A DNA stretch of 64,000 nucleotides from a virus, in the IMG/VR virus record IMGVR_UViG_3300043449_002688, positions 62,001-126,000 of that record, one strand, 5' to 3'. The position numbers were made by a program, and so were the translations under genes. Shown here piece after piece: positions 20,860 through 34,947 of this stretch (the first letter of the stretch is position 1; every line of letters starts with the position of its first letter). Under the pieces are notes generated by a model. It ran no database searches. It worked only from the letters and a program-made list of their open reading frames with translations, and was not told the DNA's origin.

Positions 20860-20932
20860 TGGGTTGTAGCCAAGTTGGTAAGGCAGCACACTGTTAATGT
20901 GCCCACCGCAGGTTCGAATCCTGCCAGCCCAG
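20860..20932 (+). tRNA. tRNA-Asn (GTT)
   Basis: 73-base cloverleaf. Acceptor stem TGGGTTG pairs with CAGCCCA (one G-T), anticodon stem GCACA/TGTGC encloses CTGTTAA with anticodon GTT, and the T arm is GCAGG-TTCGAAT-CCTGC. The discriminator is G, as is usual for tRNA-Asn. CCA is not fully encoded (GCAG follows), so the tail must be added by a nucleotidyltransferase. Confidence 0.93.
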
Positions 20933-20966
20933 CAGTAAATTCACTGTTTTTAAAAGAAAGTTTAAT

Positions 20967-27426: not shown

Positions 27427-27666
27427 TTATGTATTTCCTGTAATATTTGCAAAATAAAAAACTTTAAAATCTTTTATGCCATATTTTTTAGCAGAATAAT
27501 TAATCATTTTCATTTTAGTTAAAAACCTTAAATGGATGCTGCTGGTCTCTTTTTGTTTCCAACTTTTATCTTCTACTAAATAAATATCTTGAAGAACTTC
27601 TAAATAATCATATAAAGTTTTTTCAACCATTAAATTGGCTTGAATTTGCATTTCTTTAGTAGACAT
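27427..27666 (-). CDS. Small structural or chaperone protein
   Basis: 79 residues, helical, with a Lys-rich middle (EDKSWKQKETSSIHLRFLTKMKM). It abuts the tail-tube-like gene (stop and start adjacent) and overlaps the stop of the large gene upstream by one base, so it is translated as part of that operon. No family recognised; a chaperone for one of the flanking virion proteins would fit. Confidence 0.65.
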   Translation of the reverse strand: MSTKEMQIQANLMVEKTLYDYLEVLQDIYLVEDKSWKQKETSSIHLRFLTKMKMINYSAKKYGIKDFKVFYFANITGNT

Positions 27667-29900
27667 TAGCTTTCACCCCAAATATTAACTTTATCGCTTA
27701 CTGGAGGATTATCAATATCAGAACCTAATCCCATATTGCCAAGATTTTTATCAGAAGGATAAATTATAATTATCTCTAAGCGAATCCCAACCGCAACAAT
27801 AGAGCGAATTAATTCTTCCGCAAAAATTCTACCATCTGCGGTTCCAGTTAAATATACTCCATAATCAGTCCCATCTTCTTGAGGCTGGTAAGCTTTTGAA
27901 TCGCTTAAAACAGTTACATCTGATAAAGAATCGTGACTATATTTAAAAGAATATGAAGGATCAAGAACTAAAGTTGTAAGAGCGTTTTCTATAACAGGAA
28001 TACAAGTGCCAGAAGTTTCATAAGCAGTTGCAGAAGGAAATTTTGTAAATGTAAAAACATTGGTAGAAGGAGTTCCAATAACAGTCCAACTTCCGTTGAA
28101 GTTAACGGTGTTTGAAATTAAAATATTTTCTCCGGCAATAGCGCCATGAGAGCCTATTGTGGTGACAGTAACAGTATTTCCTACTTGAGAAATAGTTGAA
28201 ATATCTACAGGCGTTAAATTAGAAATACTTTGCGCATTTAAATATGTTACTGGACCTTCTTGAGTTTCTTTATTTAAATCAAAAAGCAAATATCCTCCTT
28301 CCGAAGGAAAATTTCCTTCTGCTAAAAGAGTAGTTTTAATTTGCCCACCTATAATTTTTTCCCTAATTGTACCGTAAAAACTAGTTAAAGTATAAGGCGC
28401 TGCAGGATCTATAATATAAGGTCCAGGAAAAGGAGTATCAGGATTATCTTCCGGCATGTTAGCGACATTTACAGAAACTATTTCGTCTGAAATAATTCTA
28501 TTCCATTGATCAACAACTCCGGTTAGTCCATGCGGCTCAAGGCAAACTACAGTGGTGTACCCATTTTCTCTAAAAATATAATCAATAGGAGTTGAGTTTA
28601 AAGTTCCACCAAAACCCGCTGCATCGCTACCGTTTTGTTTATAACGAACAACTCTATCATTTACGATTTGTATTTTATTTTCAATTTCAGTTGTAGAACC
28701 CCAACTTCCATTAAATTCACCTTTACCGTACAAAAAATGTAAATGGGAAGCTCCAATCAAAGCTCGCTTAACAACTTTAGTTGTTGCTGGCATATAAACT
28801 TTTAATAATTTTGAGGTAGGTTCCCAAGCTAATGCATATCTGGCCTGAGAATAAGGAGTATTTTTTCTTGGTAAAAAGAATTTTAAATCATCAAAACTGC
28901 TTTGAGTTACTCTAAATCTATAATCGTTTGATTCAGGAGGGTCTATATCGGGAGCTGAAGATTTCAGCGCAGTAAAATCTGGTATTTCTATCTCAAAATA
29001 TCCTGCATTACTGGCTACTGTACTTAAAGGTGGAAATCCTGATGTAGAAGGTGGAGCAATTTTTGTAACTTCAAAAGTCCCTTCAATGCCATAGCTTTGA
29101 AAACCTTGGCCATAAATCATAACATTATCGCCAACAAAAGCTTGATCTAACTTAGGTTTTGGTCCAGATATCCAACGAAATCTATAAGTCGAACCTACGT
29201 TTCGAGTAATTTCCCAAACTGTAGTATTGCCTTCTTCTAAAAAAGTATCTCTTATGATAGGGAATTCTAATTGATTTTGAATTCTGCCGCCAAGAATTTG
29301 TATATAAGAATATGGGCCTTTGGCTCCGCCATAAATGCGAACATATTCTAATCCTGATTCTGGGTCAATAATAACTTCTGCGTACCCATTTAACCCAAAG
29401 CTTCTGATAAAGTTAGTAATAACATTTGCCAATTCTGGGGCAGTTGCCTGTTGAATGTTTTCAAATTCTGCTTCAGAAATAACTAATGTGAGGATTTGAT
29501 CATTTTCTAATGCAAAAGTTAAATCATCTCCATCAGCTAATTGATATGGACCTGCAATACTAGAAGTGCAATGCGCTCTAACGGCTTCATCTCCGTAAAA
29601 AGTGCTTAAAATTGCATGAATTGATTCGGTAATTTGTTTTTGGGCGTTTACTTGTATGCCCATTTGCTTAAAGGCTAGATCTTCCATCCCAAGCTCTGGT
29701 GGTCTAACAATACCAAGAGCTGACATGTTTTTATCTAAATAAACGCCAGAAGAGGCAGTTATAGTTAATTGGTCGTTAACGGCAATGGAAAGCTGTTCTT
29801 GTTTTTCAGCTTCATCAGCAAGAGCGCCAAGAATAGCATCGAAATTTTCCCCTTGAATAAAGGGGCTAATAAACTGTCTAAGAAACGCCTTTTTGTCCAT
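27666..29900 (-). CDS. Baseplate-wedge-like structural protein
   Basis: 744 residues. The N-terminal 80 residues (FDAILGALADEAEKQEQLSIAVNDQLTITASSGVYLDKNMSALGIVRPPE) have the form of gpJ/gp6-type baseplate proteins, where a helix is followed by 'G..LD..A...GI.R', and they parallel residues 45-90 of the gpJ-like protein at 42002. The rest is beta-rich with repeated structural modules, one of which (about 590-650) resembles the NTVTVTTIGSHGAIAGENILIS-type module found in the other two giant structural proteins. It heads a three-gene operon. The ATG has no clear ribosome binding site and lies only nine bases past the late-type element. Confidence 0.68.
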   Translation of the reverse strand: MDKKAFLRQFISPFIQGENFDAILGALADEAEKQEQLSIAVNDQLTITASSGVYLDKNMSALGIVRPPELGMEDLAFKQMGIQVNAQKQITESIHAILSTFYGDEAVRAHCTSSIAGPYQLADGDDLTFALENDQILTLVISEAEFENIQQATAPELANVITNFIRSFGLNGYAEVIIDPESGLEYVRIYGGAKGPYSYIQILGGRIQNQLEFPIIRDTFLEEGNTTVWEITRNVGSTYRFRWISGPKPKLDQAFVGDNVMIYGQGFQSYGIEGTFEVTKIAPPSTSGFPPLSTVASNAGYFEIEIPDFTALKSSAPDIDPPESNDYRFRVTQSSFDDLKFFLPRKNTPYSQARYALAWEPTSKLLKVYMPATTKVVKRALIGASHLHFLYGKGEFNGSWGSTTEIENKIQIVNDRVVRYKQNGSDAAGFGGTLNSTPIDYIFRENGYTTVVCLEPHGLTGVVDQWNRIISDEIVSVNVANMPEDNPDTPFPGPYIIDPAAPYTLTSFYGTIREKIIGGQIKTTLLAEGNFPSEGGYLLFDLNKETQEGPVTYLNAQSISNLTPVDISTISQVGNTVTVTTIGSHGAIAGENILISNTVNFNGSWTVIGTPSTNVFTFTKFPSATAYETSGTCIPVIENALTTLVLDPSYSFKYSHDSLSDVTVLSDSKAYQPQEDGTDYGVYLTGTADGRIFAEELIRSIVAVGIRLEIIIIYPSDKNLGNMGLGSDIDNPPVSDKVNIWGES

Positions 29901-30606: not shown

Positions 30607-30780
30607 TTAATTTAAAAGAAAAGCCAATTTCATCATTACAGCTATAAATACTGGGGAAGTAAAGGCTATTATTGCTGATGAGACAACAAAATTTGCAATA
30701 TCTGTTTCTGGCTCAGAAATATATTCATTACCTTCTTTGTCCACAAAAATATAGTCTTCTTTGCAGTATTCTTTAAACAT
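30607..30780 (-). CDS. Small membrane-anchored protein
   Basis: 57 residues, preceded on the minus strand by AGAAAGG seven bases before the ATG. Residues 1-27 are soluble, acidic and Cys-containing (MFKEYCKEDYIFVDKEGNEY), and residues about 30-56 form one or two hydrophobic helices ending FLLN. It lies between the candidate structured RNA and the small-gene operon. A 10-base imperfect inverted repeat at about 30540-30593 follows its stop and may end transcription. Function unknown. Confidence 0.6.
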   Translation of the reverse strand: MFKEYCKEDYIFVDKEGNEYISEPETDIANFVVSSAIIAFTSPVFIAVMMKLAFLLN

Positions 30781-30855
30781 AAAAACCTTTCTGTTTAAAA
30801 GGTACTTATTTAGTGTAGCTTATATTTTTATAAAAACAACAAAAAATAAATAAAA

Positions 30856-31320
30856 GCGCGGCAAATAACGGTTAACGGTCCTTTTACTCTTATATGGGTT
30901 GAAGGTTCACCAAATTTTACGTTACTGCCGCAAAAATAATATTAACAAAAGTGTGGTAGGCAGGGCGCGATTCCTGCTCTAATCGTCATTAGTCAACCGC
31001 ATCGGAACGTCTCCGAGTCTAGGTTAGCGTGTCTCCAGTGGCGGTTCAATTTATTGTTTATAACTGGCTGCCGCCCCAGTCACCACAGCTTTCCACGCCG
31101 CTACCACAAAATAATATTAGCTAAAGCGAGACCAGCCAGACGCGACCCTGGCTACGAGCGTACTGAGGTTCAACAGCTACCAGGGACGTATCCCATGCAA
31201 GTGATTACCCTCGTCTTCGGCTCCGAGTATTGTCTTCTCTCTGCGTGTCCCAGAGTGAGCAGCTAACGCATCTCCTGACGAATTCTGTTCACCACTCAGC
31301 GACTTCACGCCTTGGTCTCA
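30856..31320 (-). ncRNA. Candidate large structured non-coding RNA, about 460 nt
   Basis: A 550-base gap between minus-strand genes whose base composition is clearly GC-richer than its surroundings and full of inverted repeats. Helices visible (plus coordinates): 30858-30863/30926-30931 extended by 30866-30870/30920-30924; 30960-30964/30973-30977; 30995-31000/31041-31046 enclosing 31002-31006/31012-31016; 31063-31067/31076-31080; 31134-31139/31148-31153; 31183-31186/31191-31194; 31243-31247/31306-31310 enclosing 31253-31257/31293-31297. GTGGTA at 30953 can also pair with TACCAC at 31102. On the minus strand the last helix is followed by GCTTTTATTTATTTTTT, a terminator-like end, which favours minus-strand transcription, as for both flanking genes. 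Size, phage origin and complexity recall the ROOL and GOLLD RNA classes, but I could not verify membership. Confidence 0.72.
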
Positions 31321-31331
31321 AGAATAAACTA

Positions 31332-32294
31332 TCACAATCTGCTACCATTTTCAAGAGCAGTATTACTACTAACTTGAACAACAACAGCTTTTTCTCTAAA
31401 TTCTCTAATATTGCTTGCGCCTACATAAGTAAAAGCACTTCGAATTCCGCCTTCAATGTCTTGCATTACATCTTTAACAGTAGAGGTAACTTTAACATGC
31501 CCAGAAACACCTTCTGCCGTTCTCCAGTCAGCCAATTTATTTTGAACAGCATAAGATTCTTGGGAAGCACTGCCCCTATATGTTTTATGTCCATTGATAT
31601 TAGGTGCAGCAGATTCTTCTGTTTGGGCAAGCATTTTGCCTACCATTACAGCTTCAGCTCCTGCGGCTAAAGCCTTTACTACATCGCCTGCAGACTTGAT
31701 TCCGCCATCAGCAATAACGTAATGCACTTTAGCGCATTCTTTTACGGCACTAAATTGCGGCATCCCTACGCCAGTTTTAATTCTAGTAGTACAAGCCGCT
31801 CCAGGACCAATTCCAACCTTAAAAGCAGTAATGTTATACCCTTTGCTGCGTTTCAAAAATTCTTCTACGGAAGAAGCGGTAGCAAAATTGCCTACAATTA
31901 ATTCTACGTCATAACGATCTAATAGCCATTTTGCTTGATCTACAACCTGTTGTTGTGCCCCATGAGCTACATCAATAATAAAACGATAAGCTCCACTAAC
32001 TGCTAAAGCAGCGGCTCGCTCTCGCTCTAATTCTCCCATACCGATTGATACCCAAGTTTCTTTAGGAGAGTTTTTATATAAATTTATGTTTTCTTTAATA
32101 TCGGCAAAACGATGAAGGCAGCCCACACCTCCGGCATTTGTCATAGCATGAGCCATATTAGGTCCAGTAACAGAATCCATATTGGCTGAGATTACTGGTA
32201 TTTTTAAACCAAAACTACTAACGTCTACATCTTTTCTTGAGTTTATTTCTGAAAACTGTGGCAAAATTAGAACATCATCATAGGTCAAAAGCAT
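31332..32294 (-). CDS. IMP dehydrogenase/GMP reductase family enzyme
   Basis: 320 residues forming one TIM barrel without CBS domains, which matches GMP reductase (about 340) better than IMP dehydrogenase (about 490). Visible signatures: LTYDDVLILPQ at the start, SANMDSVTG, AGGVGCLHRF, the catalytic-loop GIGPGAACTTR with the active-site Cys (about residue 165), VIADGGIKSAGDVVKALAAGAEAVMVG for phosphate binding, and YRGSASQES. GMP reductase turns GMP into IMP with NADPH; IMP dehydrogenase does the opposite oxidation step toward XMP. The lack of CBS domains is not decisive because minimal IMPDHs exist. GGAG precedes ATG. It likely adjusts purine pools during infection. It follows the glycosyltransferase gene by 51 bases. 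Confidence 0.9.
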   Translation of the reverse strand: MLLTYDDVLILPQFSEINSRKDVDVSSFGLKIPVISANMDSVTGPNMAHAMTNAGGVGCLHRFADIKENINLYKNSPKETWVSIGMGELERERAAALAVSGAYRFIIDVAHGAQQQVVDQAKWLLDRYDVELIVGNFATASSVEEFLKRSKGYNITAFKVGIGPGAACTTRIKTGVGMPQFSAVKECAKVHYVIADGGIKSAGDVVKALAAGAEAVMVGKMLAQTEESAAPNINGHKTYRGSASQESYAVQNKLADWRTAEGVSGHVKVTSTVKDVMQDIEGGIRSAFTYVGASNIREFREKAVVVQVSSNTALENGSRL

Positions 32295-34117: not shown

Positions 34118-34358
34118 CTGCCCTAATTGCAAGTCTAGCTGGATTGGTGAGCCAATTCCTGAAGTCCTTCGTCAGCATTACGGCGATGAAACTCATTGGC
34201 GCAGAGAAATAAACATTGACGGTGGCTACATGGGCATTTATGATGGAATAGTCGCAGTTATATGCCCAGACTGCAAAGAAGAATTTCCCCGAAACGATAG
34301 TTCTTGGGCGTTAGAAATGTTTAAGAAGTACCAAGAGGCTGTAAATGAGAGTAAATAA
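34110..34358 (+). CDS. Small zinc-ribbon protein with split Cys pairs
   Basis: 82 residues. Cys pairs are at the start (CPNCKSSWIG) and near residue 52 (VICPDCKEEFPR), separated by an insert containing Trp/Arg and a GGYMGIYDG turn. This C-x2-C...C-x2-C frame suggests a rubredoxin-like knuckle pair. It overlaps the genes on both sides. Second zinc-ribbon gene in a row. Confidence 0.7.
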   Translation: MDNCPNCKSSWIGEPIPEVLRQHYGDETHWRREINIDGGYMGIYDGIVAVICPDCKEEFPRNDSSWALEMFKKYQEAVNESK

Positions 34359-34947
34359 AGAAATAATCTCAAAATTAGGTCCATGTAAAAATAGGTTCGA
34401 TAATTATTTAGAATATTACTCTGACTTTGATGGAACCTTACAAGAATTTATTTTGCTAGATAAAATTACTCATAAAGACAAAATTTGGGTAATTACAAAG
34501 CTTTTTGATGACAAGCAAAAAAGTAAATGGGCTATTAAATGTGCTTTTAGCGTTTTATATATATACGAAAAGAGTTTTCCGTCTGACGATAGACCAAGAA
34601 AAGCTATAGAAGCCGCACAGGAATGCCTAAGTAATCCTGCTGCTCGTGCTGCTGCTTATGCTGCTGCTGATGATGCTGCTCGTGCTGCTGCTTATGCTGC
34701 TCGTGCTGCTGCTTATGCTGCTGCTTATGCTGCTTATGCTGCTGCTTATGCTGCTGATGATGATGTTACTCGTGCTGCTCGTGCTGCTGTTGATGCTGCT
34801 CGTGCTGCTGCTTATGCTGCTGCTGATGATGCTGCTCGTGCTGCTGCTTATGCTGCTGATGATGATGTTACTCGTGCTGCTGCTTATGATACGCAAAAAC
34901 AACTTAATTTAAAGTTTGCTATCGAGGTCTTAAATGAAACGAAGTGA
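34345..34947 (+). CDS. Imm5-like phage protein with long Ala-rich repeat tail
   Basis: 200 residues. The N-terminal 95 residues include IWVITKLFDDKQKSKWAIKCAFSVLYIYEKSFPSDDRPRKAIEAAQECL, a segment I know from phage proteins annotated with an Imm5-type immunity domain that end in AAYAA repeats. From about residue 99 to 182 the protein is a degenerate repeat of Ala with Tyr, Arg and Asp (AAAYAA, AADDAAR, DDDVTR). It resumes QKQLNLKFAIEVLNETK. It would form one long helix or stacked helices. The last four residues, NETK, arise because its 3' end is also the start of the next gene. Whether it protects the phage against a toxin is inference. Confidence 0.75.
   Translation: MRVNKEIISKLGPCKNRFDNYLEYYSDFDGTLQEFILLDKITHKDKIWVITKLFDDKQKSKWAIKCAFSVLYIYEKSFPSDDRPRKAIEAAQECLSNPAARAAAYAAADDAARAAAYAARAAAYAAAYAAYAAAYAADDDVTRAARAAVDAARAAAYAAADDAARAAAYAADDDVTRAAAYDTQKQLNLKFAIEVLNETK
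34639..34890 (+). repeat. Triplet-rich repeat (GCT with TAT, CGT, GAT)
   Basis: A 252-base stretch made almost entirely of GCT codons interspersed with TAT, CGT, GAT and GTT. Two larger copies of a unit containing GATGATGATGTTACTCGT lie about 105 bases apart. It is prone to slippage and keeps three frames open, which explains apparent ORFs on other frames. Confidence 0.9.

Follow-up and report, generated by a model that had tools for sequence, protein, structure and literature searches.

What a GC-rich gap in an AT-rich phage genome may encode is the question raised by positions 30856-31320 of the viral DNA analyzed here (64,000 nucleotides, bases 62001-126000 of the 154,801-base IMG/VR virus record IMGVR_UViG_3300043449_002688; hereafter, the window). 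The stretch, bounded by a guaC-like gene and a 57-codon open reading frame (ORF), is GC-rich (~52%; 0.48-0.53 across 30900-31299, against 0.35 for the whole window), non-coding (no ORF of more than 70 amino acids crosses it, and no ORF there has a Pfam match) and structured; the original prediction had rightly noticed both the GC content and the lack of a fitting gene. It had also proposed a large phage non-coding RNA with at least eight nested or adjacent helices. Covariation bears out a structured phage non-coding RNA, but not a large ornate one of the ROOL/GOLLD kind: as judged by comparison with relatives, the minus strand encodes two tandem units (C, then B) of one compact RNA family with members of ~95-280 nt. 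The array, two units plus a hairpin rather than a single nested structure, runs on the minus strand from 31319 down to ~30840:

31319-31128, minus strand: unit C (type 2), the second tandem unit, 192 nt
31313-31319, minus strand: 5' strand of helix P1 of unit C, pairing with 31128-31134 (GAGACCA/TGGTCTC)
31135-31152, minus strand: hairpin P2 of unit C, GCCAG GGTCGCGT CTGGC
31107-30953, minus strand: unit B (type 1), a complete RNA unit, 155 nt
31101-31107, minus strand: 5' strand of P1 of unit B, 7 bp with 30953-30959
31094-31098, minus strand: 5' strand of P3 of unit B (GCGTG), a near-invariant helix, pairing with 31027-31031
31083-31086, minus strand: 5' strand of P4 of unit B (GTGG), pairing with 31038-31041
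30960-30977, minus strand: P2 of unit B, a 5-bp hairpin with the 8-nt loop AATCGCGC, abutting P1 without a spacer
30953-30959, minus strand: 3' strand of P1 of unit B, partner of 31101-31107 by covariation and mutual information
30840-30931, minus strand: hairpin A, GCGGCAG-TAACG...CGTTA-TTGCCGC (30931-30858), then the U-rich tail GCTTTTATTTATTTTTTG

Units B and C are separated by 20 nt. Unit B scores 105 bits with our covariance model, R1, in whose training set it was included, and unit C, which was left out of that set, is detected by cmsearch with R1 at E 6e-5 (33 bits). P1 of unit C has the same 7-bp geometry as that of unit B and a different sequence; between P3 and P4, unit B carries the conserved internal loop GAAAGCT / TGGAGA. 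The long-range pairing predicted between 30953-30958 and 31102-31107 is real, and was correctly supposed to close a multi-branch junction: it is P1, the 7-bp closing stem of unit B (30953-30959/31101-31107), and covaries at every position in relatives. The hairpin and U-rich tract foreseen at the end of the minus strand correspond to hairpin A, by its sequence a terminator-like 3' end of the array that lies outside the R1 family (it has no R1 match). Hairpin A is not present in G007, a related viral contig whose units lead directly into a ribosome-binding site.

The case for an RNA rests on comparison, because folding energy is uninformative: for the minus strand it is close to that of shuffles (z 0.09), for the plus strand weakly better (z -1.69), and it was dropped as evidence. 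In an alignment of 48 distinct sequences and 22 pairs, 97.3% of cells are paired, against 76.5% in shuffles; 17 of the 22 pairs show double changes (11.0 in shuffles), doubly changed cells number 217 (56.3 in shuffles), and the covariation score is 0.529 (0.144 in shuffles). The signal is lost when the partners are slid by 1-3 columns, and the covariation check proposed with the prediction is strongly positive. Moreover, the scan patterns constrained parts of P3/P4 only and were silent on P1 and P2, so these two helices are independent tests: P1 shows double-sided compensatory change at 7/7 positions across the family and P2 covaries at 5/5 pairs, while 99.6% of P3 cells are paired. It is the covariation of P1/P2 in relatives, and not folding energy, that leads us to accept a structured RNA, and the family is almost certainly real. 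The opposite view, that there is no RNA but only chance GC-rich hairpins or a mobile DNA repeat, could draw on the shuffle-like folding energy of the minus strand but is refuted by the covariation; mobile repeats, moreover, have conserved ends, whereas P1 differs in sequence among copies with its pairing kept. Its chances are practically nil. Covariation this strong is rarely met in new structured RNA classes.

A structure-blind analysis, by mutual information with average product correction, places P1/P2 pairs at all of ranks 1-9. Rank 10 falls on two columns that are not Watson-Crick partners: one is the R in GCGUGGRAAGC, the other the position immediately 5' of P2 (A with A in 25, G with U or G in 17, exceptions in 5; Fisher p 6e-8, a value that ignores shared ancestry, although the units are from diverse phages). 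A tertiary contact between the internal loop and that neighbor of P2 is the best reading of this covariation. A predicted contact of this sort, the ~30 near-invariant core nucleotides around the junction and a phage-wide spread with tandem units would all suit a self-processing ribozyme, in which the invariant internal loop and the AGUMGCGN loop of P2 would form an active site cutting at the edge of P1. Small self-cleaving ribozymes, however, conserve the cleavage site, whereas the flanks of P1 are A/T-rich and otherwise unconserved; no ribozyme in Rfam is matched, and we regard self-processing as decidedly unlikely.

In RNA orientation, the units are built in the order P1a (7 nt), 2 nt, GCGUG (P3), GRAAGCU, GUGG (P4), a variable loop, CCAC, UGGAGA, CACGC, a joining region of tens to ~160 nt, P2 with the loop AGUMGCGN and, directly, P1b. 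All have the 7-bp closing helix P1 and the 5-bp P2 hairpin abutting it, with the loop AGUMGCGN in nearly all units, around the near-invariant core GGCGUGGRAAGCUGUGG...CCACUGGAGACACGC; units B and C carry these elements and thus belong to the family that R1 defines. Unit length is ~95-280 nt (median 174 nt). The joints (7 bp, 2 nt, stem, then 5 bp without spacer) are free of insertions in the alignment, and two segments are free in both length and content, the apical loop of P4 and the joining region between P3 and P2. A constant core with two freely variable segments, present in several copies per phage, recalls the RNAs that guide or scaffold a nuclease (omega-RNA or CRISPR-like), in which case the variable segments would be the guides; the variable segments, however, lie inside the fold and not at its end, and neither a recurrent neighbor protein nor a nuclease is linked to the units, so that we give this idea very little credence.

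The joining region can itself be modular. Unit C and its G007 homologue share a conserved module there (J3/2), AGAGAGAAGACAATACTCGG...GAGGGTAATC...GTTGAACCTCAGTA, and at locus L231 the same module is attached to a type-1 core, which indicates that modules recombine; inside the module, GAGC/GCTC in unit C and G007 is replaced by GTGC/GCAC in L231, a compensatory change. As a separate observation, a hairpin resembling a tRNA T-arm (5-bp stem, TTCRANY-type loop) occurs in a variable segment of 5 of 54 units, against a mean of 0.56 in shuffles and 0 in reverse complements, possibly through recombination with tRNA genes; at 5/54 it was rejected as a defining feature of the family. The five units are:

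L131:2597-2841
L114:11338-11477
L117:2935-3130
L134:2575-2780
L142:8809-9016

The relatives were reached by several routes. A first hint of tandem units was an internal direct repeat (30933-30970 / 31108-31145, 71% identity), whose A-rich core, AAAATAATATTA, has no further occurrence in the genome pieces read. The AT-rich repeat motif AAAATAATATTANCNAAAGNGNG occurs twice in this genome, both times at the RNA stretch; as a lead to relatives it proved false, giving a single streptococcal-type promoter-like locus with 13 copies. Nor did the guaC-like protein, a baseplate-like protein or plain blastn against cultured phages and plasmids yield useful close relatives. A search with the terminase protein, in contrast, returned 34 related viral contigs. 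In one of them, G007, the RNA stands in the syntenic place, upstream of a homologue of the window gene 27666-29900, with a further copy 22 kb away:

L100:2656-2856: unit B homologue of G007, in the syntenic place
L100:2400-2637: unit C homologue of G007

Comparison of the window and G007 copies exposed the core GCGTGTCTCCAGTGG...CCAC (plus-strand letters). A scan of IMG/VR with the exact core found 44 viral stretches, the majority of them genuine, and others came from a second pattern; R1 gave 53 matches in 52 loci and, at E<=0.01, a match in 43 of 49 whole records, several of which have two units, in tandem or dispersed. Together, the motif scans and the covariance model brought ~50 additional units, spread over more than 40 IMG/VR contigs, and matches in three bacterial genome assemblies as well. 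Among the core matches in genome contigs, 2 of 29 are real by the covariance model. The first bacterial assembly is a contig of a Dependentiae metagenome-assembled genome, phage-like in appearance; the second is the cultured Cerasicoccus frondis NBRC 105381, in which RecT- and exonuclease-like genes downstream of the unit (contig 22, 37206-37383) indicate that it apparently sits in a prophage; the third is a further genome that shares its class with Cerasicoccus, and 130 bases separate its unit (L241:1819-1892), weak but well-formed, from a host tRNA-Gln that may mark a prophage attachment site. Cultured phage records contain no units at blastn sensitivity, and a unit is missing from Myxococcus phage Mx1, which by terminase is the closest relative in culture. 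The family thus recurs across phages that differ widely in GC and in genome size (records of 10-177 kb), and in the apparent prophage, which makes C. frondis a tractable host for its study.

Whether the RNA belongs to a described class was addressed with Rfam 15. At the gathering threshold, the whole window contains only two tRNAs, and across the window and 11 member loci nothing but tRNAs reaches that score, neither HEARO, raiA nor any other family. Permissive searches, at E<=10 for the stretch and two strong units and at E<=5 for the G007 loci, gave only chance-level matches, so that the check suggested against ROOL, GOLLD, OLE, raiA, HEARO and others came out empty. ROOL, GOLLD and OLE are large or phage-associated, junction-rich structured RNAs (PMC12286853), and the array has the phage association, structure and junctions in common with them. 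The idea of one large RNA of the ROOL/GOLLD kind is also in keeping with the ~470 nt, high GC and phage setting; yet ROOL, GOLLD and OLE are not matched in the stretch even at E 10, and relatives carry single, independent units (94-278 nt), each with a P1 of its own. We consider one large RNA, as proposed, to be refuted. The core sequence was not found in open-access papers, preprints and subscription papers lying outside that search. The suspicion of a new class is probably correct: as far as could be tested, that is, as far as Rfam 15 and the open literature reach, the family is new. 'New' applies to the RNA family, since phage non-coding RNAs without an assigned function are already known as such.

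The strand was settled on two grounds. Read on the minus strand, the alignment has 30 G-U pairs against 9 A-C, although the model to which that alignment was fitted is itself a minus-strand one, so that the G-U excess is biased in that direction; independently of that fit, the closest ORFs of 75 codons or more are on the RNA strand in a ratio of 31:14 upstream and 38:8 downstream. The plus-strand reading, first favored by its fold z-score and A-rich spacers, is ruled out by the G-U pairs and the orientation of the neighbors. The genes flanking the array in the window are:

31332-32294, minus strand: IMPDH/GMP reductase-like (guaC-like) gene (PF00478, E 9e-74), outside the RNA
30607-30780, minus strand: 57-codon ORF, downstream of the RNA units and on the same strand

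The guaC-like gene lies 12 nt upstream of the RNA units, on the same strand. It is a phage-encoded gene without linkage to the units in other phages.

Elsewhere, the neighbors are unrelated (GroEL, a DnaB-type helicase, RusA, PA14, an aminotransferase, a metallophosphoesterase). A cis-acting, riboswitch-like leader, whose core would bind a ligand or protein and control the downstream gene on the same transcript, would account for the shared orientation of unit and downstream gene (38 of 46), for the end of G007 unit B right before an AGGAGG ribosome-binding site and for a conserved core with variable arms; riboswitches also occur as tandem units. The downstream genes, however, share no common function (10 neighbors examined), their distance from the unit ranges from a few to hundreds of bases, with some on the other strand, and no conserved alternative terminator or anti-Shine-Dalgarno helix is found. 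No protein family, nuclease or other, recurs within ~5 kb of the units. The absence both of a theme among the neighbors and of a linked protein family argues against a dedicated partner and against a riboswitch, making the leader an unlikely explanation, and in favor of action in trans, for which the tandem units of several phages also count. From these patterns, the units probably act in trans rather than in cis; the explanation as a whole, two tandem members of a structured phage RNA class not described before and acting in trans, we would put at about even.

What such an RNA may do is suggested by its outline. As in tRNA, the 7-bp closing helix is met on its 3' strand by a 5-bp hairpin without a spacer, and a 2-nt linker brings the start of the next stem to position 10; the acceptor/T-arm stack of tRNA is likewise of 7+5 bp. 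The acceptor/T-arm geometry is what RNase P and T-box RNAs measure on tRNA (PMC4919913). The units also differ from tRNA, in their 8-nt AGUMGCGN loop in place of the T-loop TTCRANY, in the large variable joining region and in P3/P4 with its conserved internal loop; they have no CCA 3' of P1 and no match to Rfam tRNA or ARAGORN. Lacking both T-loop and CCA, the units are not tRNAs. Bacterial RNAs that mimic tRNA, such as transfer-messenger RNA (tmRNA) and the YrlA type, are stable RNAs around a tRNA-like end; unlike them, the units match neither Rfam nor ARAGORN, and no tag reading frame was shown. A Ro-protein partner, as for Y RNA/YrlA, was rejected (no Ro60/TROVE protein in 28 records, many of them fragments). 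T4 stable RNAs C and D (RNA species 1 and 2, of the tRNA cluster) are also small phage RNAs, and two units lie near a same-strand tRNA-Met gene; this is a lead only, with no sequence relation claimed. Beside this, tRNA-Asn (GUU) genes recur in unit-bearing contigs (window 20860-20933, L119, L120, L123, L131, L139 and L141).

Comparison shows a fold in which P1 closes the unit, P2 follows without a spacer and a 2-nt linker leads to P3/P4, flanking the invariant internal loop; the non-Watson-Crick covariation implies that this loop touches the base next to P2. The units would be transcribed as part of the surrounding operon, and the transcript cut into separate stable RNAs whose invariant core would bind a host factor. 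Because the 7+5-bp stack repeats the acceptor/T-arm, the likeliest partner would be a component of the host machinery for tRNA, RNA processing or translation, or a defense nuclease that targets tRNA; tRNA-like processing or decoy action is inferred from this layout. The unit could then serve as a mimic or decoy, with the variable segments setting paralogue-specific details. Several points weigh against this: P1 is not followed by CCA, P2 carries a loop other than a T-loop, the 7+5 layout could have arisen by coincidence, and a core this invariant would be just as fitting in a catalytic RNA or in one that binds a ligand. A tRNA-like mimic or decoy is thus only a tentative assignment by analogy. 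More speculative still is the fuller proposal of a new, widespread phage RNA class that would mimic the acceptor/T-arm end of tRNA, be released from polycistronic transcripts by the host enzymes that process tRNA and, in trans, decoy or modulate the host translation machinery or tRNA-targeting defenses, its paralogues diversified in tandem. In any event, the invariant core, together with the tRNA-like outline, suggests that the RNA has a specific molecular partner, which can now be searched for.

Other features were seen along the way. In a distant relative, G001, a permuted tmRNA is called at L017:14100-14418 (tag ANDNDASFGTFALAA), beside a tRNA-Arg. The frame at L022:8886-10841 (G000, ~48.9-50.8 kb) opens with what resembles the C-terminal half of an intein, with VTHNC as its last residues, and lies near another frame, possibly PHP/DNA polymerase; an intein is probable here. 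An ORF at L024:14168-14956, between structural genes, has a GIY-YIG-like N-terminus (MIIYILTNLINNKIYVGQT...) and is a probable homing endonuclease. Finally, the protein encoded at 34345-34947 of the window contains a long low-complexity Ala/Asp/Arg/Tyr repeat (AAAYAADDAARAA).
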